DNA from: an uncultured Bacteroidales bacterium
Lineage (GTDB): Bacteria; Bacteroidota; Bacteroidia; Bacteroidales; UBA932
DNA length: 37,283 nucleotides
Assembly (NCBI GenBank): GCA_944323775.1
Contig: CALUTT010000032.1
Location: forward strand, 1-37,283
Direction of reading: 5' to 3'
The notes under the pieces are model-generated. The model did no database searches. It saw nothing but the letters and a program-made list of their open reading frames with translations, and was not told the DNA's origin. Positions 6,231 to 33,061 of the stretch are shown piece after piece (the stretch's first letter is position 1; each line of letters opens with the position of its first letter). A program made the position numbers and the translations under genes.

Positions 6231-7700
6231 ATGAAGAAAACAGTAATTTTGTTGGTTGCTGTCTCGTCCGTTTTCTGCATTGGGGCACACGCCCAGGACG
6301 TTGTACAGCAGGTCGATACGGCCTCAGCGCCCAAATCGATCACTCTCGAGCAGGCGCTTCAGATCGCACTGAGCGAAAATGCATCCGTCAAGGTGGCGGA
6401 CATGGAGATAGAGAGGACGGGATATGCCCGCAAGGGTACTTATGCCTCTCTTTTTCCGCAGATAGACGGTAACGCTTCCTACCAGCGCACTATCGAAAAG
6501 CAGGTGATGTATATGGACTTCGACATGGGCGGAGGTGCTTCCGGAGGCTCGTCGGAAGGTTCAGGCTCGGCCGCAGGCGGTTCGTCGGCCGCTACAAACG
6601 GAGGCGGAATCGAGGTTGGCCGCTGGAACACATGGTCTGCCGGAATCACGGCTTCCATGCCTCTGGTGAATGCCCAGCTCTGGAAGAGCCTGAAGATTTC
6701 CGACCAGGACGTGGAGCTGGCGGTCGAGGCCGCGAGGAGTTCGCGTCTCGAAATGGTCAACCAGGTGAAGCAGGCATATTTCGCCTGCCTGCTCGCGAAG
6801 GAGGCCTTCGAGGTGTACAAGTCGGTCTACGAGAACGCTCTCGAGAACTACAAGCTCACAGAGATGAAGTACAACGCCAAGAGGGCGTCGGAACTCGAGC
6901 TCACGAGGGCAAAGACCACCCTTGCGAACGCTATCCCGGACGTATATAATGCCGAAAGTTCAGTGATACTGTCACTCTGGCAGCTCAAGGCGGTCATGGG
7001 AGTCGACCTCGACGAGAATATCGACGTGGCCGAGACTCTTGAGAATTATGCCGACAGCATGCTCGGCGACCTGGCCGCTTCCGGCGACTCGCTCTCGCTC
7101 GAGAACAACAGCACGATGAGGCAGCTCGCCATCCAGGCCGAGCAGCTCGCCAATACGATCAAGCTGCAGCAGTACGCCAACATCCCGACGCTTTCGCTCG
7201 CGTTCTCCTACAATTTCAACGCGATGACCAATGACTTCAATTTCAGCGAGTACAGATGGTCACCGTATTCATATGTAGGTGTTACCCTGTCAATCCCTAT
7301 TTTTGCCGGAGGACAGAGGAGCAGCGCCATCAAGCAGGCCAAGGTACAGGCGGCCGAACTGAATGTCCAGAGGGCTGACACCGAGCGTCAGCTCAGAATC
7401 TCGATACGGCAGAACCTGAACCAGATGGAGACAGCCATGAAAAGCTATGGAGCGTCCCAGACGGCTCTTGAGTCTGCTCAAAAGGCTTATGACATTACGG
7501 CCAAGTCCTATGAGGTAGGAAGCAGCACGCTCACTGACCTTAACGACGCCCAGCTCGCGCTTACGCAGTCGCAGCTTGCCGTGTCTCAGGCCATCTATGA
7601 TTTCGTGATAGCGAAATCAAGTCTGGAAAGCGTGGTCGGGGCCGACTTCATCGATCCCGAAGGGAATGTTCAACTGAATAATACTTACGATAATGAATAG
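6231..7700 (+). CDS. TolC-family outer-membrane efflux channel
   Basis: A 489-residue protein with a signal peptide (about 1-22, ending GAHAQ) and two long alpha-helical halves typical of the outer membrane efflux protein (OEP) family. Examples are QALQIALSENASVKVADMEI near the start and SAQKAYDITAKSYEVGSSTL in the second half. It would form the outer-membrane and periplasmic tunnel for the RND pump encoded next. A glycine/serine-rich insertion at residues 100-126 falls in the position of a surface loop and is unusually long and low in complexity. Its 3' end overlaps the adaptor gene by 8 nt, indicating a single operon. Confidence 0.93.
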   Translation: MKKTVILLVAVSSVFCIGAHAQDVVQQVDTASAPKSITLEQALQIALSENASVKVADMEIERTGYARKGTYASLFPQIDGNASYQRTIEKQVMYMDFDMGGGASGGSSEGSGSAAGGSSAATNGGGIEVGRWNTWSAGITASMPLVNAQLWKSLKISDQDVELAVEAARSSRLEMVNQVKQAYFACLLAKEAFEVYKSVYENALENYKLTEMKYNAKRASELELTRAKTTLANAIPDVYNAESSVILSLWQLKAVMGVDLDENIDVAETLENYADSMLGDLAASGDSLSLENNSTMRQLAIQAEQLANTIKLQQYANIPTLSLAFSYNFNAMTNDFNFSEYRWSPYSYVGVTLSIPIFAGGQRSSAIKQAKVQAAELNVQRADTERQLRISIRQNLNQMETAMKSYGASQTALESAQKAYDITAKSYEVGSSTLTDLNDAQLALTQSQLAVSQAIYDFVIAKSSLESVVGADFIDPEGNVQLNNTYDNE

Positions 7701-12154: not shown

Positions 12155-12469
12155 ATGGCTAAAGTTGTAAATGATTCGAATATCGCCGAGATCCTTTCTT
12201 CATCTCAGCCTGTCATAATTGATTTCTGGGCTACATGGTGCGGCCCTTGCCGCGTCCTCGGTCCTACAGTCGAGGAGGTAGCATCTGAGTATGAGGGACG
12301 TGCGGTGGTCGCGAAATGCAACGTAGACGACTGTGAGGACATCTCTTACAAGTACGGAATCCGCAACATCCCGACTCTGCTCTTCTTCAAGGGAGGAGAG
12401 GTAGTGGACAGGACTGTAGGCGTCGTTTCCAAACAGGAAATCGTTTCAAAAATTGACAAATTAATTTAG
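12155..12469 (+). CDS. trxA: thioredoxin
   Basis: Thioredoxin is the cytoplasmic disulfide reductant, and this is a single-domain form of 104 residues. The active site WCGPC is present with Cys29 and Cys32, and the conserved cis-proline stretch NIPTLLFF lies later. The ATG at 12155 was chosen because it gives the normal family length. An in-frame upstream ATG at 12122 would begin inside the terminator hairpin and add an unlikely hydrophobic tail. It is the first gene of a long operon and is followed after 6 nt by a beta-barrel gene. Confidence 0.95.
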   Translation: MAKVVNDSNIAEILSSSQPVIIDFWATWCGPCRVLGPTVEEVASEYEGRAVVAKCNVDDCEDISYKYGIRNIPTLLFFKGGEVVDRTVGVVSKQEIVSKIDKLI

Positions 12470-20680: not shown

Positions 20681-20712
20681 TTTGCTCGATTCGGAGGAAA
20701 GGATTACCTTTG
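20681..20712 (+). promoter_or_regulatory. strong promoter of the TonB-dependent receptor operon
   Basis: TTTG (20681-20684), a 20-nt spacer and TACCTTTG (20705-20712) match the Bacteroidota consensus at both elements. The leader to the start codon at 20808 would be about 90 nt. It is back to back with the metK promoter. Confidence 0.75.
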
Positions 20713-20734
20713 CGCCCGAATTAGTTGTAGTTGT

Positions 20735-20767
20735 ATTGTTGAATTCTCAAAAATTAGTCTATATTTG
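20735..20767 (+). promoter_or_regulatory. second, tandem promoter of the receptor operon
   Basis: ATTG (20735-20738), a 21-nt spacer and TATATTTG (20760-20767). The -7 element is perfect and the -33 element is one base off. Confidence 0.5.
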
Positions 20768-20807
20768 CCGTTGGCAGTTAATTGTTCCAATTATTTATAA
20801 AAACAGT

Positions 20808-23800
20808 ATGAAAAAAACGATCAAAAGTCTATTGCTGTCTTTTGCGGCAATGCTTTTTGTAGTCTCTGCCTCTGCACAGGTCACGACCTCGGCCCTCAAC
20901 GGCAAGGTTGCTGAAAAGAGCGGAGAACCTATTCCCGGGGCGACAGTCATCGCCACCCACACGCCTTCTGGCACCCAGTACTATGCTGTGGCTAATGCCG
21001 AAGGCCGTTTCTTTATAAACGGTATGCGTTCTGGCGGCCCTTATACGGTTGAGGTGAGCTGCCTCGGTTACCAGACCGTCAACTACACTGACATCACCCT
21101 TCAGCTTGCCGAATCCTACAACCTCTCTGCCGAACTCGCTGTAGACAATGAGATGCTGAGCGAGGCGATTGTGGTTTCAACCGCCGCTTCAAGGCTTTCA
21201 GTCGAGAAGACGGGCGCTGCCACGAACATCTCCAACGCTCAGATCACCGCGCTTCCTACGGTGACAAGAAGCATTGAGGATGTCACGAGGCTGTCTCCCT
21301 ACGGTGGCAACGGAATGACTTTCGCCGGAGCTGACGGACGTACCGCCAACTTCACTGTGGACGGTGCCAACTTCAACAACAACTTCGGTCTGAGCGACGG
21401 CCTTCCCGGAGGCGGCAACCCTATTTCTATTGATGCCATCGAGGAACTCCAGGTCGTTATCTCTCCCTATGATGTTCGCCAGACGAACTTCATCGGCGGA
21501 GGTGTGAACGCCATCACCAAGTCAGGTACCAACACTCTCAAGGGAACCGCTTACGTTTATCACCGCAACGAGAATCTCCGCGGTGACACCATCGGAGGCG
21601 AGCAAATCGCAGGCGCACGTGCCGTAGACCGCAACACCACCTACGGTTTCACTCTCGGCGGACCTATCGTCAAGAACAAGCTGTTCTTCTTCGTGAATGC
21701 CGAGTATGTGAAGATCCCTACGATCGTGAACAGGTGGAGGGCTTCCGAGGACGGAGTAGCCGATCCTGACAACTACATCTCACGCACCACTGTCGCTGAC
21801 CTTCAGAGGGTCTCTGACTTCGTAAAGACAAAGTACGGCTACGATACCGGATCCTTCACTGATTTCCCTGCTGACGAGAGCAACCTCAAGCTCCTCGGAC
21901 GTATCGACTGGAACATCAACGACAACAACAAGCTTGCGCTCAGGTACAACTATACCATGAACAGGTACTGGCAGTCACCCAACGCAACATCAATGGACGG
22001 CGGTACCCGCTCTGCATATTCGAGAATGTCACAGTACTCGATGAGCTTCGCTAATTCGATGTACTCCATGGACAATATCGTGAGCACCCTCTCAGTGGAT
22101 CTCAACAGCCGTATCTCCGACAAGCTTTCAAACCAGCTGCTCGTCACCTACTCAAAGCTTGACGACGTGCGCGGAAGCAACTCTGACGAGTTCCCGTTCA
22201 TCGATATCCTCGACGGTACCGGTACCAACGGAAACTACATGGCTCTCGGATATGAGCTTTTCACCTGGAACAATGCGGTGCACAACACCCACTTCAGCGT
22301 GAAGGACGACCTCACCTACTATTCCGGAGACCACAAGATCACCGGAGGACTCAACTTCGAGTATCAGATGGCCGACAACATCTACATGCGCAACGGTACC
22401 GGTTATTACCGCTATGCCAGCGTTGATGACTTCATCAACGGAGCCGCTCCTGAGATTGTCTGCCTTACTTACGGTTATGACGGAGAATTCGCCCCTGCTG
22501 CCAGGGTACAGTTCTACAAGGCCGGCGTATATGCCCAGGACGAGTGGCAGGCAAGCGACGACTTCATGCTTACCTACGGCCTGCGTCTTGACGGTCTGTT
22601 CTTCGACAACTCGGACCTTATGACCAACAAGGCCATCTATGACCTCGAGTATCCTGACGAGAACGGCAACGTACGCCATATCGATACCGGAAGGTGGCCC
22701 ACTTCCAACATCACGGTTTCACCCCGTGTGGGCTTCACCTGGGATATCCTCGGCGACAACTCATTCAAGCTCCGCGGCGGTACCGGTCTCTTCTCCGGAC
22801 GTCTCCCTCTGGTGTTCTTTACCAACATGCCTACCAGCGGCGGTATGGTGCAGTACAACGCCCAGATCAACGAGTCCAGCCTGCAGAAAATGCTTGGCAG
22901 CAACTATGATCCTTCCAAGGGATCCGCTATGTCCCAGATATTCGGCGGCGGTCTGGTTACCGATGCCAACGGAAAGGCCACTGCCCAGGCTCTGCTCGAG
23001 AAGCTTGCAAGCATAGGCTATCCTACCACTGTAAAGCCTGAAGACGGTACTGTTCCTTCTTCAATTTCTGCGGTAGATCCCAACTTCAAGATGCCTCAGG
23101 TATGGAAGACCTCACTTGCGTTCGACTACGCATTCCCGACTTCATTCCCGTTCTCTGTAACGGCCGAGGCTATCTACAACAAGACCATCAACGGTGTGAC
23201 CATCTCTGACTGGAGCATCAAGCCTGTCGGCGGATTCGCAAGGTTCAACGGTGTGGACAACCGTCCTATCTATCCTACCGGCTTCCGTTCAAATACCAAG
23301 GCATTCGTGCTTGAGAACACCAACAAGGGTTACGGATACTCTGCCAGCGTCTCCCTCAACATGAGCCCTATAGAAGGACTTGACATCATGGCTGCATATA
23401 CCCACACCATGAGCAAGGAACTTACCGGAATGCCCGGATCAAACGCCGAGTCTGCATTCACTTATGTTCCGACCGTCGAGGGACCCAACAACATCAGGCT
23501 TCACAACTCACAGTATGTAACTCCTGACCGTGTGGTAGCTTCACTTACCCACAGCGACAAGAGCGGCAACCACTACAGCTTCATCTACGAGGCGTTCAGG
23601 GGCGGATACAACTACTCCTACATGACCACCAACGACATGAACGGAGACGGCTATGCATACGATGCCCTCTACATCCCTACCGACGAGCAGGTTGCCAACA
23701 GGGATTTCCGCTTCGCTTCAGAGGACGACGCTGCACGCTTCATGGATTTCGTCCACAACGATCCTTACCTGAGCAAACACCAGGGCCAGTATGCCGAGGC

Positions 23801-24140
23801 ATACAGCGTATACTCTCCTTGGGTCCACAGGCTCGACTTCAGCTACAAGCATGACTTCAAGGTCCAGATCGGAAAGACTACCAACACTCTCCAGCTCAGC
23901 CTCGACATCAAGAACCTTCTCAACCTCTTCAACTCTAACTGGGGTGTAATGAAGCAGCTCAATCCTGATGCCATCGGTGACGAGGCCCGCATCCTTACCT
24001 ATGACGGAGTTGACGCAGAAGGATACGCAGTATTCTCTACTCCTGACGGAATCAACGCCAACACCCAGACCTTCGTTCCTTACCATGGACTCGGACAGTG
24101 CTGGTATGCATCCATAGGTATCAAGCACATGTTCAACTAA
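20808..24140 (+). CDS. Oar-like TonB-dependent receptor
   Basis: A 1110-residue outer-membrane protein. The ATG at 20808 is chosen because it opens a clean signal peptide (MKKTIKSLLLSFAAMLFVVS, cut after SASA-Q); the longer frame upstream reads through the promoter region. A CarboxypepD_reg-like domain lies at about 25-105 (LNGKVAEKSGEPIPGATV). It is followed by a plug (about 115-250, with TVDGANFNNNFGLSDGLPGG and IDAIEELQVVISPYDVR) and a large barrel ending IGIKHMFN. This is the Oar-type class that has no SusD partner. It leads an operon with a BACON/OB lipoprotein (15-nt gap) and, beyond a terminator, two nucleases, so nucleic acid fragments or nucleoprotein are possible cargo (inference). 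It has two tandem promoters. Confidence 0.9.
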   Translation: MKKTIKSLLLSFAAMLFVVSASAQVTTSALNGKVAEKSGEPIPGATVIATHTPSGTQYYAVANAEGRFFINGMRSGGPYTVEVSCLGYQTVNYTDITLQLAESYNLSAELAVDNEMLSEAIVVSTAASRLSVEKTGAATNISNAQITALPTVTRSIEDVTRLSPYGGNGMTFAGADGRTANFTVDGANFNNNFGLSDGLPGGGNPISIDAIEELQVVISPYDVRQTNFIGGGVNAITKSGTNTLKGTAYVYHRNENLRGDTIGGEQIAGARAVDRNTTYGFTLGGPIVKNKLFFFVNAEYVKIPTIVNRWRASEDGVADPDNYISRTTVADLQRVSDFVKTKYGYDTGSFTDFPADESNLKLLGRIDWNINDNNKLALRYNYTMNRYWQSPNATSMDGGTRSAYSRMSQYSMSFANSMYSMDNIVSTLSVDLNSRISDKLSNQLLVTYSKLDDVRGSNSDEFPFIDILDGTGTNGNYMALGYELFTWNNAVHNTHFSVKDDLTYYSGDHKITGGLNFEYQMADNIYMRNGTGYYRYASVDDFINGAAPEIVCLTYGYDGEFAPAARVQFYKAGVYAQDEWQASDDFMLTYGLRLDGLFFDNSDLMTNKAIYDLEYPDENGNVRHIDTGRWPTSNITVSPRVGFTWDILGDNSFKLRGGTGLFSGRLPLVFFTNMPTSGGMVQYNAQINESSLQKMLGSNYDPSKGSAMSQIFGGGLVTDANGKATAQALLEKLASIGYPTTVKPEDGTVPSSISAVDPNFKMPQVWKTSLAFDYAFPTSFPFSVTAEAIYNKTINGVTISDWSIKPVGGFARFNGVDNRPIYPTGFRSNTKAFVLENTNKGYGYSASVSLNMSPIEGLDIMAAYTHTMSKELTGMPGSNAESAFTYVPTVEGPNNIRLHNSQYVTPDRVVASLTHSDKSGNHYSFIYEAFRGGYNYSYMTTNDMNGDGYAYDALYIPTDEQVANRDFRFASEDDAARFMDFVHNDPYLSKHQGQYAEAYSVYSPWVHRLDFSYKHDFKVQIGKTTNTLQLSLDIKNLLNLFNSNWGVMKQLNPDAIGDEARILTYDGVDAEGYAVFSTPDGINANTQTFVPYHGLGQCWYASIGIKHMFN

Positions 24141-24155
24141 TCTTGAAGGACAGTT

Positions 24156-25685
24156 ATGAAACTCAGATATTTACTAACATCTTTAGTTGCTGGAGCCGCG
24201 CTCCTCACCTCATGCGTGCAGGAGGCTCAGCAGACCTATCTCGACCAGATCCGCGTAAGCTCGTCTTACGTCGCCATCAGTGTCGAAGGCGGTTCCACTA
24301 CGATTACCCTTGACGCTACCGATGCCTGGACCATCACCGGTGTAGGCGATGCCGAGGGGGAACTCTCATGGGTTAAAGTAACCCCTATGGCAGGTGATGC
24401 CGGTGAAGACATCCAGCTCACCTTCTCCGCAGAGGCCGATGCCAGCGGAAGGGAAGGTTCCGTATATATCAACTGCGCCGGCGTACAGCAGATCATCAAT
24501 GTGATCCAGGGCGAGCCTGTCGCAGAGACCGTAAGTGTCAAGGATGTGCTTGACGGCATCGAGGGCAAGCTTTACCGTGTCACCGGAACCTGCACGTCAA
24601 TCGTGAACACCAGCTATGGTAACTGGTATCTGAACGACGGCACCGGCGAGCTTTACATCTACGGTACCGTTAACAACTCCCAGCAGTATGACTGGGCGTC
24701 ATTCAACATCGAAGTCGGAGACGAGGTTACCGTCGAGGGCAGGCGCACAACATACAACGGCACCATAGAGTTTGAGGACGCTCTCTTCATTGACGTGAAC
24801 AAGTCACTCATCAAGGTTGAGGAAACCAATCCCGAGGACGCTTCCTTCACCAAGGAAGGCAGCCAGGTGTCAGTGACCCTTACCTGCAAGGGCAACGGTC
24901 TCGCAGTCGAGATTCCGGAGGATGCAAAGAGCTGGCTCTCCATAGCTTCTATCGGAGGAACCACCACGAATCCTGTAGTTACCTTCCAGGCCGCAGCCAA
25001 CGAGCTCGGTGACCGTTCCACTACCGTGACATTCTCTACGGTTGACAGCGAGTCAAAGAACTATACCGCTCAGCTGACTCTCAGCCAGGCCGGTGCAATT
25101 ATCGATGCGACCGCTGCCGAGATCAACGCAGCCGAGGACGGCGAGACTCAGTACCGCATGACAGGTTACCTCAGGGAAGTCGCTAACGACATCTATGGCA
25201 ATCTCTATGTAACGGACTACTCAGGTGAGGTTTATGTGTACGGTGTGCTTGACGAGAACGGAGCGGCAAAGAACTGGGCGAACCTCGGAATCAACGAGGG
25301 TGACATTATCACCGTGGTAGGTCCCAAGACCTCATACAACGGCGCTCCTCAGCTCAAGAATGTCAGCGTCGAGGACCACAAGGCCGTTACCGGCGCTACT
25401 CTTGCCGAGTTCATCGCAGCCGAGCCCGCCGATGACGTATGGTATCGCCTCACGGGAACCGTTAAAGATATCTACAACACCGAGTACGGCAACTTCCACC
25501 TGCTTGACGATGCCGGAAACGACGTGACTGTCTATGGCCTCGTTGCCGGATGGGGCGGTCCCAGCAAGCAGTTCTCTTCTCTTGGAATCAAGGAGGGAGA
25601 CGTGATCACCATCGTCGGCGTACGTGACGAGTACAACGGTACCGTTCAGGTCGGAAAAGCGTTCTTTGTATCTGTAGCAGAATAG
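24156..25685 (+). CDS. surface lipoprotein with two BACON and three OB-fold-like domains
   Basis: A 509-residue lipoprotein (lipobox LTSC, Cys20). Visible order: BACON-like beta-sandwich 33-118 (SYVAISVEGGSTTITLDATD ... VIQGE), OB-fold-like 137-212, BACON-like 228-312, OB-fold-like 331-405 and OB-fold-like 427-505. The three OB units share an internal pattern: YRxTG, about 12 residues, YGN plus a strand, an xxYxYG or VTVYG strand, (N/S)LGI(N/K)EGD or NIEVGDE, then YNG. BACON domains commonly bind surface material in Bacteroidales, and OB folds often bind nucleic acids. The gene follows the Oar-like receptor by 15 nt and is followed by a terminator. It may capture nucleic acid and pass it to the receptor, which is inference from domains and neighbours. 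Confidence 0.8.
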   Translation: MKLRYLLTSLVAGAALLTSCVQEAQQTYLDQIRVSSSYVAISVEGGSTTITLDATDAWTITGVGDAEGELSWVKVTPMAGDAGEDIQLTFSAEADASGREGSVYINCAGVQQIINVIQGEPVAETVSVKDVLDGIEGKLYRVTGTCTSIVNTSYGNWYLNDGTGELYIYGTVNNSQQYDWASFNIEVGDEVTVEGRRTTYNGTIEFEDALFIDVNKSLIKVEETNPEDASFTKEGSQVSVTLTCKGNGLAVEIPEDAKSWLSIASIGGTTTNPVVTFQAAANELGDRSTTVTFSTVDSESKNYTAQLTLSQAGAIIDATAAEINAAEDGETQYRMTGYLREVANDIYGNLYVTDYSGEVYVYGVLDENGAAKNWANLGINEGDIITVVGPKTSYNGAPQLKNVSVEDHKAVTGATLAEFIAAEPADDVWYRLTGTVKDIYNTEYGNFHLLDDAGNDVTVYGLVAGWGGPSKQFSSLGIKEGDVITIVGVRDEYNGTVQVGKAFFVSVAE

Positions 25686-25707
25686 CTTGAATACTGCAAT
25701 TTGATTA

Positions 25708-25744
25708 AAAGGAATGGTTCTTTAACAGGAATCATTCCTTTTTT
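25708..25744 (+). terminator. Rho-independent terminator inside the nuclease locus
   Basis: The 13-bp stem AAAGGAATGGTTC (25708-25720) / GAATCATTCCTTT (25729-25741) has one G-T pair and ends in a run of six T. It would end most transcripts after the BACON/OB gene. Confidence 0.85.
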
Positions 25745-25746
25745 AT

Positions 25747-25754
25747 TATCTTTA
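25747..25754 (+). promoter_or_regulatory. probable -7 element for the nuclease genes
   Basis: TATCTTTA differs from TAnnTTTG only at the last base. It lies immediately after the terminator and about 30 nt before the NUC1-type gene. No convincing -33 element. Confidence 0.45.
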
Positions 25755-25783
25755 CCCCGTAAAGCAAACCAACATTATTAGCG

Positions 25784-27460
25784 ATGAAACGAAATCTCAT
25801 ACTTTTGGTATCGGCGGCTGTCCTTGCCGTCGTCGCAGGGTGCCAGAAACCTGCTCCGCAGGTGGTGCTGCCTGCGGAAATCAGCATAGATTCCGGCCCC
25901 GAGATCACGGTGCCTGTAAACGGTTACGGCTACTCTGTCGGCCTGACAGCCACAGTCGACTGGGAACTGCGGGGTTATGATGAAAAGGCCCAGTCGTGGC
26001 TGGTTGTCAATCCAACTTCCGGAAAAGCCTCTTCCTCAGTCCAGAAAGTCGCCATTACCGCTCTCGGGAACAGCGGTCCCGCACGCAGTGCGACTCTTAC
26101 CTTTTACGGGAACGACGACTGCAGCGCTTCTATCACCTTCACGCAGGAGGCCGGCGGTGGAGCAGTTTCTCCCGATGCAGGTTCTACGATCTATTCCATA
26201 TCCTTCCTTGAGGGCATGGGAGACTTTACGATCGAAGACAAGGACAAGCCTTCCGCGATAGATGAAGTGTGGAAGTGGTCCAGCCAGTACGGAATGGTAG
26301 GAACAGGATATGTTTCTGATTCCGGGACCAACTATGATTCCGAGAGCTGGCTTGTGTCTCCGCTCATAGACCTCAGCTTCGAGCAGTCTGCATACCTCAC
26401 CTTCAAGCATGCGACCAACTTCTTCAGCAATGTCTCTGTCCTTCCCGACCAGGCTTCCGTCTGGGCCAGGGAAGAAGAAGGCTCATGGGCCAAACTGGAC
26501 GGCATATACTATCCTGACCAGCTCGGATGGACTTTCGTGGATGCCGGCTATGCCGACCTCTCCGAATATGCCGGGAAGAAGATGCAGTTTGCCTTTGCCT
26601 ACAAGAGCACTGCCCAGAAGGCCGGTACCTGGGAGGTGAAGAGGGTCGCGGTCAGGAGGACGGCGCCTCCTGTAGCCATGACATCTGACAAGCCTGGCGC
26701 CTGGATGGAGATGCCTGCCTTCGACGGCAGCGATTCAGGTCTCTATCTCATCACTCATGACATGGAGCAGGGCGGCAAGTTTGTACGCAACTACACCTAC
26801 TGCTACAGCCCTGAGGACAGGGTGGCTGTCTGGGTGGCCTATCCGCTCAACCGGAGCCTCAAGGGGAACGGCAGCCGCACCGACGAGTGGGGCCTGGATC
26901 CCAAGGTGCCGAGAGAGTACCAGCCCATACTGTACAAGACATATGGCGACGGAATATATGACCGCGGACACCAGATCCCTTCTGCCGACAGGCTTGACGA
27001 AGATGCCAACATATCAACGTTCTATTTCACCAACATGGCTCCCCAGCTCAGCGAGCTCAACCAGGGTGCGATAGCGAATCTTGAGAACATGGTTCGAGAC
27101 TGGTCCTATCAGATGGATACCCTCTATGTGGTCACCGGAAGCGACCTCCAGGGTGCGACCAAAGTGGCCCACGACAACGAGGGCAACGAGGTCACTGTTC
27201 CGTCAGGTTTCTTCAAGGCTCTGCTCGGGTATGATGCGAGCGGCTCGGTCGGAGGAGACACCGGAGGCTATTTCGGCATTGCCTTCTACTTCGACCATAA
27301 GGACTATGCCGGCAGCAAGTCTGCCATCATGGAGCAGTCAATGAGCATCGACCAGCTGGAAGAGAAGCTCGGGTACGACTTCTTCGCCAACCTTCCGGCC
27401 AAGATAGGGGAAGAGGCCGCGGCTGCGGTTGAGTCTGGAGTGGATGACTGGTGGAAATGA
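25784..27460 (+). CDS. lipoprotein DNA/RNA non-specific endonuclease (NUC1 family)
   Basis: A 558-residue lipoprotein (VAGC, Cys20) with a BACON-like N-terminal domain (about 30-125). A jelly-roll segment of the choice-of-anchor type lies at about 135-290 (SWLVSPLIDLSFEQSAYLTF). The C-terminal DNA/RNA non-specific endonuclease domain spans about 305-540. The catalytic motif DRGHQ is at 393-397 (His396), and the metal-ligand asparagine region TNMAPQLSELNQG follows. Such beta-beta-alpha-metal nucleases cut single- and double-stranded DNA and RNA without sequence preference. The lipid anchor puts it at the cell envelope, consistent with degrading environmental nucleic acid. The stop codon overlaps the start of the next nuclease (ATGA). 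Confidence 0.92.
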   Translation: MKRNLILLVSAAVLAVVAGCQKPAPQVVLPAEISIDSGPEITVPVNGYGYSVGLTATVDWELRGYDEKAQSWLVVNPTSGKASSSVQKVAITALGNSGPARSATLTFYGNDDCSASITFTQEAGGGAVSPDAGSTIYSISFLEGMGDFTIEDKDKPSAIDEVWKWSSQYGMVGTGYVSDSGTNYDSESWLVSPLIDLSFEQSAYLTFKHATNFFSNVSVLPDQASVWAREEEGSWAKLDGIYYPDQLGWTFVDAGYADLSEYAGKKMQFAFAYKSTAQKAGTWEVKRVAVRRTAPPVAMTSDKPGAWMEMPAFDGSDSGLYLITHDMEQGGKFVRNYTYCYSPEDRVAVWVAYPLNRSLKGNGSRTDEWGLDPKVPREYQPILYKTYGDGIYDRGHQIPSADRLDEDANISTFYFTNMAPQLSELNQGAIANLENMVRDWSYQMDTLYVVTGSDLQGATKVAHDNEGNEVTVPSGFFKALLGYDASGSVGGDTGGYFGIAFYFDHKDYAGSKSAIMEQSMSIDQLEEKLGYDFFANLPAKIGEEAAAAVESGVDDWWK

Positions 27461-28524
27461 GAAAGACATTGATATTTCTGGTCCTGCTGCTTTCTGCTGG
27501 CCTTTGGGGCTGCGGGCAGCAGGAAAAGTATGTAGTGGGATTCTACAACGTGGAAAACCTGTTTGACACGGTCGACGATCCTGCTACCAGTGACGAAGAG
27601 TTCCTGCCTGACGGCCGGAATCATTGGACTCAGGACAAGTATGAGACGAAACTCCACAATATAGCGAGCGTAATCGCGGCTATGAAGGAGGAGACAGGAG
27701 TGTTCCATACGGTGCTTGGCCTCGCCGAGGTCGAAAATGCCGGAGTGCTCGAGGATCTTGTCAGCGAACCGGAGATCGCCGGTGCCGGATATTCGTTCGT
27801 GCATCATGACAGCCCGGACCGCAGAGGCATAGATGTCGCTCTTCTCTACCGTCCCGACCAGTTCCAGGTCCTTGACAGCGAGGTGATTCCGTTCTCGTTC
27901 GACGGCACTGCGGTTGAGGTGTCCCTCTCTGACGAGGAAAAAGAGTCTTTCCGCACCCGTGACATACTCATGGTGCGTGGCCTTCTGGACGGGGAGCAGT
28001 TTGCGTTCTATGTCGCTCACCTGCCTTCGCGGGTGGGAGGCAAGGGCGGAGACCTTCGCAGCCTCGGCGCCGAAACGATATACAACCACTCAAGGCAGCT
28101 GATGCGCGACTATCCGGGCATCAAGATTGCAGTGATGGGTGACATGAACGACAATCCCACCGACGAGAGCATGGCCGTATGGCTTCATGCGCGCGCGGAC
28201 ATTGATGATGTGGACTCCGAAGAGGATTTTTTCAGTCCCTTCACCAGTATGCTTGAAGACGGATACGGTTCGCTTGAGTACAGGGGAGAGTGGAACATCT
28301 ATGACATTATCCTTGCAAACTATTATCTTGCAGACGCCCCCGACGGAGGGCTCCGTCTGTGCGAGACTGACGGGGAAGGACATTATGGCATCGTGTTCCA
28401 CAGGCCTTTCATGGTCCAGCAGAGCGGCCAGTACGCGGGGACGCCTTTCCGGACATTCTCTCACGGGGAGTTTATCGGAGGATATTCGGACCATTATCCG
28501 ACATATGTCGTGCTCGGAAAGTGA
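27457..28524 (+). CDS. lipoprotein of the endonuclease/exonuclease/phosphatase superfamily
   Basis: A 355-residue lipoprotein. The ATG at 27457 overlaps the previous stop and gives a clean lipobox LWGC (Cys19); a GTG two codons earlier is less likely. The EEP (DNase I-like) motifs are intact: FYNVENLFD with Asn31, LAEVEN with the metal-binding Glu91, AHLPS with His188, GDMND with Asp229 and Asn231, and the C-terminal SDHYP with Asp345 and His346. Family members hydrolyse phosphodiesters in DNA or RNA, or sugar and lipid phosphates. Translational coupling to a non-specific nuclease favours action on nucleic-acid fragments (inference). It is followed 19 nt later by an M3 peptidase gene. Confidence 0.9.
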   Translation: MRKTLIFLVLLLSAGLWGCGQQEKYVVGFYNVENLFDTVDDPATSDEEFLPDGRNHWTQDKYETKLHNIASVIAAMKEETGVFHTVLGLAEVENAGVLEDLVSEPEIAGAGYSFVHHDSPDRRGIDVALLYRPDQFQVLDSEVIPFSFDGTAVEVSLSDEEKESFRTRDILMVRGLLDGEQFAFYVAHLPSRVGGKGGDLRSLGAETIYNHSRQLMRDYPGIKIAVMGDMNDNPTDESMAVWLHARADIDDVDSEEDFFSPFTSMLEDGYGSLEYRGEWNIYDIILANYYLADAPDGGLRLCETDGEGHYGIVFHRPFMVQQSGQYAGTPFRTFSHGEFIGGYSDHYPTYVVLGK

Positions 28525-28543
28525 GAAACAATATTAGAAGTGT

Positions 28544-30544
28544 ATGAAGAAGAAGTTATTTTCATTTTTAGCGATTGCCATTGCCATGACAGCTTGCGGA
28601 AGAGTCAATCCGTTCCTTGAGGAGTGGGATACCCCGTATGGTATTCCTCCCTATGACCAGATAGAGATAGGTGACTATATACCGGCAATCCAGGCGGGAA
28701 TCAAACAGCAGAATGATGAAATCGCCGCAATAGTGTCGAATGCCGACACTCCGACGTTTGACAACACCATAGCGCCTCTCGAACTTTCGGGAGAGATTCT
28801 TGACAAGGTGCTTGGTGTCCTCTACAATGTCAGCGAGACTGACCGGAGCCCTGAGCTCGATTCAGTGATGGTGCTTGCGATACCGATGCTCAGCGAGCAT
28901 TCGGACGACATCTCGTTCAATAAAGGACTCTACGAGAGGGTCAAGGCCGTGTATGAAGCCGACCAGAGATCTCTGAGCCGTGAGCAGCAGGTCGTCCTCA
29001 AGAGGCATTTCGACAGTTTTGAGAGGGAAGGTATCGGGCTTGACGAGGCCGCACAGTCGGAGCTGCGTGAGATTAACGGAAGGATAGCGGAACTTACCCA
29101 GAAAATCGGCAACAACATACTGGCCGAGTCCAATGCATTTGCAGCGAAGTTCGGCTTCAGCGTGTCTGAGTATCCTACCCGCATGACAACGACTGAGGAC
29201 CGCGACCTGCGCCGCCAGTACAACGAGGCTTACACAATGCGCGGACATAACGGTAATGAATATGACAACTCGGACCTCATCCTCGAACTCGTGGGCCTTC
29301 GCATAAGGAAGGCCAACATCCTTGGGTATGAGACTCCGGCTGCCTATACTCTTGCCGACAAGATGGCTGGAAACCCCCAGACCGTGGATTCTTTCCTTGA
29401 CAGTATCATGGTTGCCGCGGTAGGCAAGGCCAGGGAAGAGCTTTCGGAACTCCAGTCCATGATGGACGAAGATATCAAGGCCGGCAAACTTCCCGAGGGG
29501 TCGAAGATAGAGCCCTGGGACTGGTGGTACTATGCCGAGAAGGTGCGCAAGGAAAAATATGACCTTGACGAGTCTCTGACAAAACCCTATTTCAAGCTTG
29601 ACAATGTTGTCAAGGGCGTTTTTGCCGCCGCCAAGACACTCTACGGGATCAATGCCGAGAAACTTGAGGGTGTTCCTGCATACAACCCCGAGGTGACTAC
29701 GTACAGGATAACCGATGAAAACGGATCGCTTGTCGGAATATTCACCACTGACTATTTCCCCCGCGAGAGCAAGAGGGGTGGCGCATGGATGAACAACGTG
29801 CGCAACCAGTATGTCGATGCAGACGGTAACGATGTGCGTCCCATAGTCGTCAATGTGGCCAACCTGCCGGAATATCTCAGCACTGACGAGGTGCTTACGG
29901 TGTTCCATGAGTTCGGACACGCGCTGCACGGACTTCTGTCCAAGTGTACATACCCGTCAGTCAGCGGTACCGGTGTCACCCGCGATTTCGTTGAGATGTT
30001 CTCGCAGTTCAACGAGAACTGGGCCTTCCAGCCTGAGCTGCTTGAACAGTATGCGAAGAACGAACGCGGCGAGGTGATACCGGAGGACCTTGTACGCAAG
30101 ATCAACGAGTCGCTCAAGTTCAACCAGGGCTTCATGACGACAGAACTCTGCGCCGCATCAATGCTTGACATGAAATGGCATGAGCTGAAAAGCGTGGAGG
30201 GTGTTGACATTGACAGCTTCGAGGCTGCCGTGGCCGAACAGATAGGACTGATACCTGAAATAACTTTCCGTTACCGCAGCACGTATTTCAATCATATTTT
30301 CGGCGGAAGCGGCTATGATGCCGGATATTACGGCTACCTTTGGGCCGAGGTCCTGGACAAGGACGCGTTCAGCATATTCCAGAATTCTCCCAACGGGGTA
30401 TGGGATCTGAACCTTGCAAGAATTTTCAAGCAGACATTCCTCGAGAGGGGAGGTTCCGAGGATCCGATGGTCCTGTACAAGTCTTTTGCAGGACGCGAAC
30501 CTGATTCGAAGGCCATGCTCCGCGGAAGGGGACTTATTGACTGA
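28544..30544 (+). CDS. M3-family zinc metallopeptidase lipoprotein (dipeptidyl carboxypeptidase-like)
   Basis: A 666-residue peptidase with a lipoprotein-type N-terminus (MTACGR, Cys18). The zinc site HEFGH is at 455-459 with the third ligand Glu484 (RDFVEMFSQ). The C-terminal SGYDAGYYGYLWAEVL segment is typical of the M3 (thimet/Dcp) family, and overall length matches. It probably removes dipeptides from, or trims, oligopeptides in the periplasm. It lies 19 nt after the EEP nuclease, so it is likely in the same transcript. Whether it belongs functionally to nucleoprotein degradation or is just a neighbour is not settled. Confidence 0.93.
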   Translation: MKKKLFSFLAIAIAMTACGRVNPFLEEWDTPYGIPPYDQIEIGDYIPAIQAGIKQQNDEIAAIVSNADTPTFDNTIAPLELSGEILDKVLGVLYNVSETDRSPELDSVMVLAIPMLSEHSDDISFNKGLYERVKAVYEADQRSLSREQQVVLKRHFDSFEREGIGLDEAAQSELREINGRIAELTQKIGNNILAESNAFAAKFGFSVSEYPTRMTTTEDRDLRRQYNEAYTMRGHNGNEYDNSDLILELVGLRIRKANILGYETPAAYTLADKMAGNPQTVDSFLDSIMVAAVGKAREELSELQSMMDEDIKAGKLPEGSKIEPWDWWYYAEKVRKEKYDLDESLTKPYFKLDNVVKGVFAAAKTLYGINAEKLEGVPAYNPEVTTYRITDENGSLVGIFTTDYFPRESKRGGAWMNNVRNQYVDADGNDVRPIVVNVANLPEYLSTDEVLTVFHEFGHALHGLLSKCTYPSVSGTGVTRDFVEMFSQFNENWAFQPELLEQYAKNERGEVIPEDLVRKINESLKFNQGFMTTELCAASMLDMKWHELKSVEGVDIDSFEAAVAEQIGLIPEITFRYRSTYFNHIFGGSGYDAGYYGYLWAEVLDKDAFSIFQNSPNGVWDLNLARIFKQTFLERGGSEDPMVLYKSFAGREPDSKAMLRGRGLID

Positions 30545-32185: not shown

Positions 32186-33061
32186 ATGAGAACGACTATC
32201 AAGATTCTGGCAATGTTTGCCGGTGTGGCGGGGCTGCTGCTGGCAAGCCAGGCTGCCGGCTCGGCCCAGGTGTGGCCCGGCCTGTTCGGAGGAAAGACCG
32301 TCAAGGCGAGCAAAGTGTTCGTTACAAAGGAAATCAATGTGCCGGACTTCAGCGGCATCAGCGTTTCAGGCAGCCCGGATGTCATATATGTCCAGAAGCC
32401 TGGCAAGCCCGAGGTTGTAGTCAACGGCCCGGACAATATTGTTGATCTGCTGGACATTTGTGTCGAGAACGGTTCCTTGAACGTAAGGTTCAGGAAGGGG
32501 GTCAGCGTGTCGTATGACAAGCTGGAGATCCGTGTGTCATCGGAACGCATTAACCGCATCAATGTGTCCGGTTCCGCGGATGTCGAACTTGGCTCATACA
32601 TCAGGACTGACCGTATGGACATGTCGATTTCAGGATCTGGTGATATCAAGGGAGACCGCATCGACTGCTCGGGAGATTTCAGCATGAGAATAAGCGGATC
32701 AGGAGATGCCGTCCTGCTGGGAGTCAGGTCCAGAGCCATGGAGATGTCTGTCTCTGGATCTGGTGATGCTCATCTCGGCAGGGTGTCCGTTCCCGGGAAA
32801 ACAGGCATTTCAGTTACCGGGTCCGGGACTGTCTCAATTGAAGGGAACACTGACAAAGCCGAGTTCAGGGTTTCGGGATCGGGAGACATCTTTGCCGGAA
32901 ACTGCCAGGCACGCGAAGTATCTGCGACAGTCAGCGGCTCCGGAAACATCGAATGCAACGCGATTGAATTCCTGAAGGTCCGCACAAGCGGAAGCGGGGA
33001 TGTCGCCTACAGGGGAAATCCCCGGATCGACTATCCCCGCAAGGGCCTTCGCCGTCTCTGA
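32186..33061 (+). CDS. GIN-domain (DUF2807) secreted beta-helix protein
   Basis: A 291-residue protein. The ATG at 32186 gives a proper signal peptide (MRTTIKILAMFAGVAGLLLA); an upstream in-frame ATG at 32150 would bury it. After the leader come about nine copies of an SGSGD-like motif with a period near 20 residues (around 61, 128, 149, 170, 190, 211, 230, 250 and 268). This is the hallmark of the head-GIN/DUF2807 domain, which folds as a right-handed beta-helix. It is exported to the periplasm or cell surface; some relatives are labelled putative adhesins without proof. It is followed by a perfect terminator and is probably a single-gene unit. Confidence 0.88.
   Translation: MRTTIKILAMFAGVAGLLLASQAAGSAQVWPGLFGGKTVKASKVFVTKEINVPDFSGISVSGSPDVIYVQKPGKPEVVVNGPDNIVDLLDICVENGSLNVRFRKGVSVSYDKLEIRVSSERINRINVSGSADVELGSYIRTDRMDMSISGSGDIKGDRIDCSGDFSMRISGSGDAVLLGVRSRAMEMSVSGSGDAHLGRVSVPGKTGISVTGSGTVSIEGNTDKAEFRVSGSGDIFAGNCQAREVSATVSGSGNIECNAIEFLKVRTSGSGDVAYRGNPRIDYPRKGLRRL

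Follow-up and report, generated by a model that had tools for sequence, protein, structure and literature searches.

A probable reduced variant of the Riemerella-type transformation locus in an uncultured Bacteroidales bacterium

The question raised by the locus described here is whether five genes on the forward strand of a 37,283-nucleotide stretch of DNA from an uncultured Bacteroidales bacterium (GenBank assembly GCA_944323775.1, contig CALUTT010000032.1; hereafter the window) make up one system for scavenging nucleic acid, as a sequence-only reading of that stretch had proposed. We confirmed that the five genes lie in a row on one strand. They encode an Oar-type TonB-dependent receptor (P0001), its partner lipoprotein with OB-like repeats (P0002), a NUC1 nuclease lipoprotein (P0003, 25784..27460, +; NUC), an EEP-family (PF19580) lipoprotein (P0004, 27457..28524, +; EEP), and an M3 family metallopeptidase lipoprotein with the motif HEFGH (P0005, 28544..30544, +; M3). 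We conclude that the locus is a reduced variant of the Riemerella-type transformation locus and not a new self-contained import system. Its NUC-EEP-M3 portion probably descends, in reduced form, from a DNA-uptake locus that is conserved in the class Bacteroidia and in its fullest form reads NUC-EEP-OMP-DUF5689-M3 (OMP, outer-membrane protein); what is left would today serve to break down nucleic acid, for salvage or to clear matrix.

Kinship with a published transformation gene pair

In Riemerella anatipestifer, markerless deletion of either RA0C_RS04915, which encodes a CarboxypepD_reg OMP, or RA0C_RS04920, which encodes a choice-of-anchor J, DUF5689 protein, abolishes natural transformation (PMC8459023; published statements are taken here from the portions of each report available to us). 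In the portion available, the authors left unidentified the nuclease that converts double-stranded to single-stranded DNA and found the OMP in Flavobacteriaceae only (PMC8459023). On the passage of DNA through the outer membrane of these bacteria, this was the one genetic screen found, and it named OMP and DUF5689 and not a nuclease; it was also the one paper found to mention DUF5689. That two core genes of the locus, both missing from the window, had already been published as transformation genes also speaks against the suggestion that the gene set was undescribed.

The EEP of the window is of the type found at this locus. In a tree of 65 EEPs, P0004 and 44 other locus EEPs formed one clade of 45 (support 100/100), composed of P0004, 13 sequences from the same genus, 22 from class or order regions, 8 from named genomes (the R. 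anatipestifer EEP is in the clade), and 1 from a genome, G059, whose clade EEP also adjoins an OMP. (G000 is the window genome, other G numbers are genomes of relatives, and L numbers are fetched regions.) Because the members of this clade all come from the OMP locus, the nuclease clade goes with that locus; the loci of the window, G001, and G008 are OMP-less, and that of G019 has an OMP remnant. The 20 sequences outside the clade were 19 other EEPs of the order or genus and a second EEP of the window genome (G000:C5:44788-45420). EEPs from the same class grouped with EEPs from Chryseobacterium indologenes and Epilithonimonas hungarica, in keeping with a placement of that class as Bacteroidia. 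One region of family f26 (L113) has two locus-type EEP genes, at 12209 and 16567, one per strand, with the second copy 4.4 kb from OMP. As the clade is linked to and co-inherited with the OMP locus, the locus-type EEP is a direct candidate for the nuclease missing from the published transformation model. The main ComEC type of Bacteroidetes, DUF4131-Competence, is described without a Lactamase_B nuclease domain in the portion available (PMC6299819), so that another protein could supply the nuclease. Among the entries listed from open-licence PMC literature we found no link between an EEP nuclease and the transformation pair and, besides the Riemerella papers, nothing relevant on a nucleic-acid utilisation locus or on the nuclease of transformation in these bacteria.

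The EEP-OMP-DUF5689 triad occurs across the class. A search with an OMP alignment (A1, 22 rows; E≤1e-20) matched 62 of 395 genomes of the phylum, all in the window's class, and DUF5689 was also present in 61 of the 62. Among the 20 of these for which regions were fetched, 18 had DUF5689 within 600 bp of OMP and 17 had EEP no more than 1.5 kb away, the exceptions being L116 (without EEP) and L118 and L129 (without EEP and DUF5689). When three class OMPs were used as queries against named genomes, EEP, OMP, and DUF5689 were found together in 76 of the best 80 of 342 relatives; three of the four loci without EEP begin near a contig end, and L193 is EEP-free over 4 kb. These 80 loci are not independent, because they come mostly from Chryseobacterium and its kin. 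They include R. columbina DSM 16469 (L203) and R. anatipestifer CCUG25054 (L226), the latter in the order EEP (reverse), OMP (935 aa), DUF5689 (469 aa), with scores of 432, 439, and 77 bits, respectively, against our custom profiles; we infer that its EEP is RA0C_RS04910 of the Riemerella report (PMC8459023). OMPs of the window's genus align with those of the class over ∼900–1020 columns at 27–43% identity. NUC lay near the triad in all four genomes sampled from family f26, which belongs to the same order (two were ordered NUC-EEP-OMP-DUF5689), and in none of the remaining 16 of the 20 class regions. The module thus extends to orders beyond Flavobacteriaceae, where the authors had found OMP, and we regard these relatives as the more valuable result, as they point to a candidate nuclease for a machinery of DNA uptake that is known only in part.

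Within the complete locus, the DUF5689 protein, an OB-fold lipoprotein at the surface, would capture double-stranded DNA, the CarboxypepD_reg barrel (OMP) would conduct it across the outer membrane, the EEP nuclease, with NUC1 where present, would nick or trim it, and ComEC would bring one strand into the cell; we infer both the order in which OMP and DUF5689 act and any role of a nuclease. The locus of the window species is without OMP and DUF5689, and its nuclease has an extra binding domain of its own (choice-of-anchor J). The enzymes that are left, together with the neighboring Oar receptor and OB lipoprotein, would most likely bind and degrade extracellular or periplasmic DNA or RNA for salvage or matrix clearance and not for transformation. 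Because OMP and DUF5689 seem to have been lost, the window version probably digests stray DNA or RNA, and nutrient scavenging is a fair guess for what remains there. More tentatively, the nuclease missing from a TonB-linked machine for DNA uptake would be EEP, and this genus would have gained the Oar-OB pair as a second receptor beside NUC1 and repeatedly lost the translocator, turning to digestion of DNA at the surface. Transformation is reduced in tonBA and tonBB mutants, for tonBB perhaps via iron (PMC8383284).

Gene order and absence of the putative translocator in the genus

Protein searches covered 61 genomes (the window's own, 36 of the same genus, and 24 from other families of the order). 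P0001 was matched in 40 (E≤1e-60), P0002 in 28, all of the same genus (E≤1e-10), P0003 in 51 (E≤1e-3), P0004 in 57 (E≤1e-20), and P0005 in 55 (E≤1e-40); relatives of P0001 with 61–78% identity over nearly the full length were present in 18 same-genus genomes. Genes were then mapped with custom profiles in 36 regions, namely the window and 35 regions around same-genus nuclease matches (G027 twice), and profile-matched genes less than 1.5 kb apart were counted as neighbors; these counts are lower bounds because several regions end at contig ends. NUC and EEP were neighbors in 31 of the 36 regions (median gap 12 bp), EEP and OMP in 27, OMP and DUF5689 in 26, and DUF5689 and M3 in 21 (1 bp), with median gaps of 1–12 bp for the four pairs. 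The OB lipoprotein neighbored NUC in 26 regions, and Oar neighbored the OB lipoprotein in 17 (15 bp). This gene order is far beyond chance, and the conservation in relatives that the sequence-only reading had asked to be checked is borne out by NUC-EEP adjacency. Some genomes do carry Oar-OB and M3 without NUC or EEP between them, and others carry Oar-OB alone, as would be expected if M3 and Oar-OB stood beside the nuclease pair by chance. However, the NUC-EEP and DUF5689-M3 counts and gaps argue against such an accident, which was already disfavored for NUC-EEP-OMP-DUF5689, and we consider it very unlikely.

The fullest order in the genus is Oar, one or two OB/BACON lipoproteins, NUC, EEP, OMP, DUF5689, and M3. 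The window order (Oar, OB, NUC, EEP, M3) recurs in G008 and, in two pieces, in G015. M3 is preceded by DUF5689 in 21 of the regions, by EEP in 3, by NUC in 3, and by an OMP remnant in 1; it is not next in G013 and G016. Oar and NUC share only 18 of the 36 regions, in 7 of which the receptor is just 31–45% identical to P0001, and in G033 the two lie on one contig 167 kb apart. Because Oar-OB and NUC...M3 are thus separable, the idea of a single five-gene system is not supported.

In three regions (L136 of G029, L139 of G025, and L146 of G010) Oar is followed by M3 with no nuclease between, an OB lipoprotein being present in the first two, and the nuclease locus of G025 sits on a separate contig from its Oar-M3 pair. 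The M3 peptidase may belong with the receptor. M3 directly after Oar or Oar-OB would also be compatible with a receptor that exports or displays protein (e.g., the nucleases or the peptidase) and does not import nucleic acid, by analogy with the Oar of Myxococcus. The candidate cargoes here are lipoproteins, which take other export routes. The Myxococcus Oar is required for secretion of the protease PopC (PMC6434023); we think a similar role improbable for the Oar here. In two regions outside the genus (L254 6503-12534 and L255 3591-9958), an Oar-like receptor is accompanied by a second gene of the OMP family, with a weaker match (853–857 aa).

The window's EEP-M3 junction (28525..28543, +) is 19 bp long; in 25 of 36 relatives from the same genus, OMP and then DUF5689 stand at this site, and the window has neither gene there. 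In relatives, the OMP after EEP is ∼980 aa long, contains CarboxypepD_reg, and gave no match to a plug domain, and the next gene encodes a DUF5689 lipoprotein (157.5 bits) that partly matches the NCBIfam M949_1556 lipoprotein, far below that model's cut-off. The window genome gave no match to OMP at E≤1e-5 (8 of 8 candidates scored) and none to DUF5689 at E≤1e-3. As the searches for these two defining genes found neither, the window, despite its locus-type EEP, is not a full member of the Riemerella-type transformation locus. OMP was present in 25 of 37 same-genus genomes and absent from 11, including the window's; in the other, G019, a shortened OMP gene (L065 3277-4905; 542 aa, 152 bits) lies between EEP and M3, no DUF5689 was found at the locus, and the arrangement seems to be in the course of decay. 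In a tree built from the M3 proteins of 31 of these 37 genomes, which is a stand-in for a species tree and hence approximate, OMP presence needs 9 changes, at least 8 of them forced, and the sister of the window (99/98) is G031, which carries NUC-EEP-OMP-DUF5689-M3. That the translocator is missing from scattered members of a single genus amounts to a natural experiment in whether DNA is taken for its genes or as food.

Several observations weigh against a reduced DNA-uptake locus. The window genome is 94.5% complete, and OMP and DUF5689 could lie unassembled elsewhere. OMP presence on the M3 tree is as unclustered as shuffled labels (9 vs. a mean of 8.7 changes). DUF5689 was found in 169 of the 395 phylum genomes, 108 of them without OMP and mostly with weaker scores, so this domain by itself is no marker of the module. 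The Riemerella screen of 3,000 mutants yielded 16 genes, and the gene upstream of OMP is not among them in the portion available (PMC8459023); EEP is, moreover, divergently transcribed in Riemerella. For both reasons EEP is no more than a candidate for a role in transformation, and it may be redundant in that process. Flavobacterium johnsoniae has homologs and was not transformed under the conditions tried, as far as the available portions relate (PMC8459023; PMC7965970). The M3 peptidase is left unexplained by DNA uptake, and the nucleic-acid functions proposed for the locus proteins are those suggested by their sequence families. In favor of reduction, nucleases longer than 450 aa were found in 6 of 8 OMP-lacking but 1 of 24 OMP-bearing genomes (Fisher p 0.0002), a contrast obtained with a post hoc limit and uncorrected for kinship. 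The nuclease of the window genome is of this long type. Three of the OMP-lacking genomes (G000, G021, and G024) have anchor J as the additional part, two (G008 and G015) an OB domain, and G019 BACON-like stretches; the lone OMP-bearing long nuclease (G016) has BACON and an F5/8-type domain.

The five proteins and their possible functions

Both nucleases fall in families of nucleic-acid enzymes above curated Pfam cut-offs, as had been read from their motifs: P0003 matched Endonuclease_NS (PF01223) with 139.5 bits (cut-off 23), and P0004 matched PF19580 with 297.7 bits (cut-off 27). P0003 also has BACON (34 bits) and a choice-of-anchor J domain that had been overlooked (NCBIfam, 35.8 bits; cut-off 30), and P0005 matched Peptidase_M3 (381 bits). 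The motifs DRGHQ (P0003), SDHYP (P0004), and HEFGH (P0005) are intact, and a lipobox-like Cys is visible by eye in each of P0002 to P0005. In the EEP alignment (A4), N31, E91, H188, D229, N231, D345, and H346 are invariant, and we take these to be the catalytic residues. A sequence search of solved structures gave no match for P0001 or P0002 and matches at chance level for P0004. The predicted fold of P0004 (pLDDT 75.7) matched TDP2, a Bacteroides EEP protein, CNOT6L, and Nocturnin at 11–15% identity; as judged from the model, these matches are EEP-type phosphodiesterases, which do not separate nuclease from other activities.

The main rival to a reduced DNA-uptake locus is that scavenging was the original function, with DNA or RNA bound, cleaved at the surface, and carried in by Oar (joined by OMP where it is present) for phosphorus, nucleosides, and carbon, and transformation in Riemerella a by-product. 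Two nonspecific nuclease families and a peptidase do look digestive, the Oar-OB lipoprotein pair resembles a receptor and surface binder, and transformation responds to phosphate in both Riemerella species (PMC8383284; PMC7965970). However, phosphate removal acts in opposite directions in the two species, the sole genetic data concern transformation (PMC8459023), and none of the five genes is for nucleoside or phosphate uptake, a weak point as neighboring ORFs of the relatives are mostly unannotated. We therefore hold this explanation to be possible but doubtful.

P0001 (20808..24140, +; 1110 aa) matched CarboxypepD_reg (69 bits) and OMP_b-brl_4 (155 bits), with TonB plug and barrel models below their cut-offs. 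Its start had been placed at 20681/20682; ATG 20808 is likelier because a signal peptide follows it. P0002 (24156..25685, +) carries two BACON stretches (50 bits) and, by eye, three OB-like repeats, PF01336 scoring 25.9 bits, slightly below its cut-off of 27. A profile of these repeats matched the DUF5689 profile with 77% probability (P 2e-5), as compared with 0.1–0.6% for six further profiles, of which two were EEP. For the Riemerella DUF5689 protein, the predicted structure (pLDDT 84.4) aligned with gingipain cleaved-adhesin domains along ∼190 columns, and as no title among its best 50 structure matches names an OB fold, the OB reading of DUF5689 comes from sequence profiles only.

The profile kinship, together with a shared design (CarboxypepD_reg barrel plus OB-type lipoprotein) and the retention of ComEC and DprA in the window genome (G000:C11 and G000:C1), would allow the window locus still to import DNA for transformation, with Oar and its OB lipoprotein replacing OMP-DUF5689. 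In many relatives, however, Oar-OB and OMP-DUF5689 coexist, which does not fit simple substitution. Oar-OB also frequently lies away from the nucleases, and six Oar regions from outside the genus (one ending at a contig end) showed no OB partner for the receptor. We judge replacement to be unlikely. The ComEC ORF of the window genome is short (410 aa), as are most in the genus (350–417 aa vs. mostly 500–770 aa in other families of the order). The Competence match in the genus (in the window genome, G000:C11:157306-158031) usually ends near position 240 of 270, and some matches cross a stop.

P0002 and P0003 are 98 bp apart, and the gap contains a terminator-like hairpin (25707..25742, +; 16 pairs, T-rich tail) between two likely transcription units, Oar-OB and NUC-EEP-M3. 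Such a break after P0002 is tempered by the frequency of terminator-like sites in the region, which shows no excess (7 vs. a shuffled mean of 8.6). The left flank presumably carries smpB and metK, and the right flank what we take to be a phosphoglycerate mutase, downstream of which lies a DUF2807 head-GIN domain protein (32195-33058). An outer membrane efflux protein (OEP; 6231-7697) followed by two large forward ORFs probably marks an efflux operon.

Taken together, the interpretation as a nucleic-acid locus stands, supported by the enzyme families, the conserved order, and the kinship with Riemerella. Left unsupported, besides the single system and the novelty of the set, was import in the manner of a polysaccharide utilisation locus, because OMP-DUF5689 is missing and no substrate is known for the window Oar.

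Comparison with known systems

Like the polysaccharide utilisation loci (SusC/SusD), the window places an outer-membrane receptor beside lipoproteins and degradative enzymes; unlike them, its receptor is Oar-like, and Pfam found neither SusD nor a glycan enzyme among the five proteins. The P0003 nuclease presumably shares its DRGH-type motif with EndA of Streptococcus pneumoniae, and it differs in being a lipoprotein with binding domains. EndA has been linked to DNA uptake (PMC6299819). With ExeM/NucH-type nucleases, P0004 shares the EEP domain and a weak NF033681 match (30 bits), but this is far below the cut-off of 300, and the OB parts of the window are on separate proteins. The Riemerella pair differs from the window, which is without OMP and DUF5689, and from its genus, which adds NUC1, OB/BACON lipoproteins, Oar, and the M3 peptidase and has EEP co-directional and not divergent. 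Nevertheless, P0004 belongs to the EEP clade that adjoins pairs of the RA0C_RS04915/RA0C_RS04920 type, and in the same 25 of 36 same-genus relatives homologs of both genes directly follow EEP.

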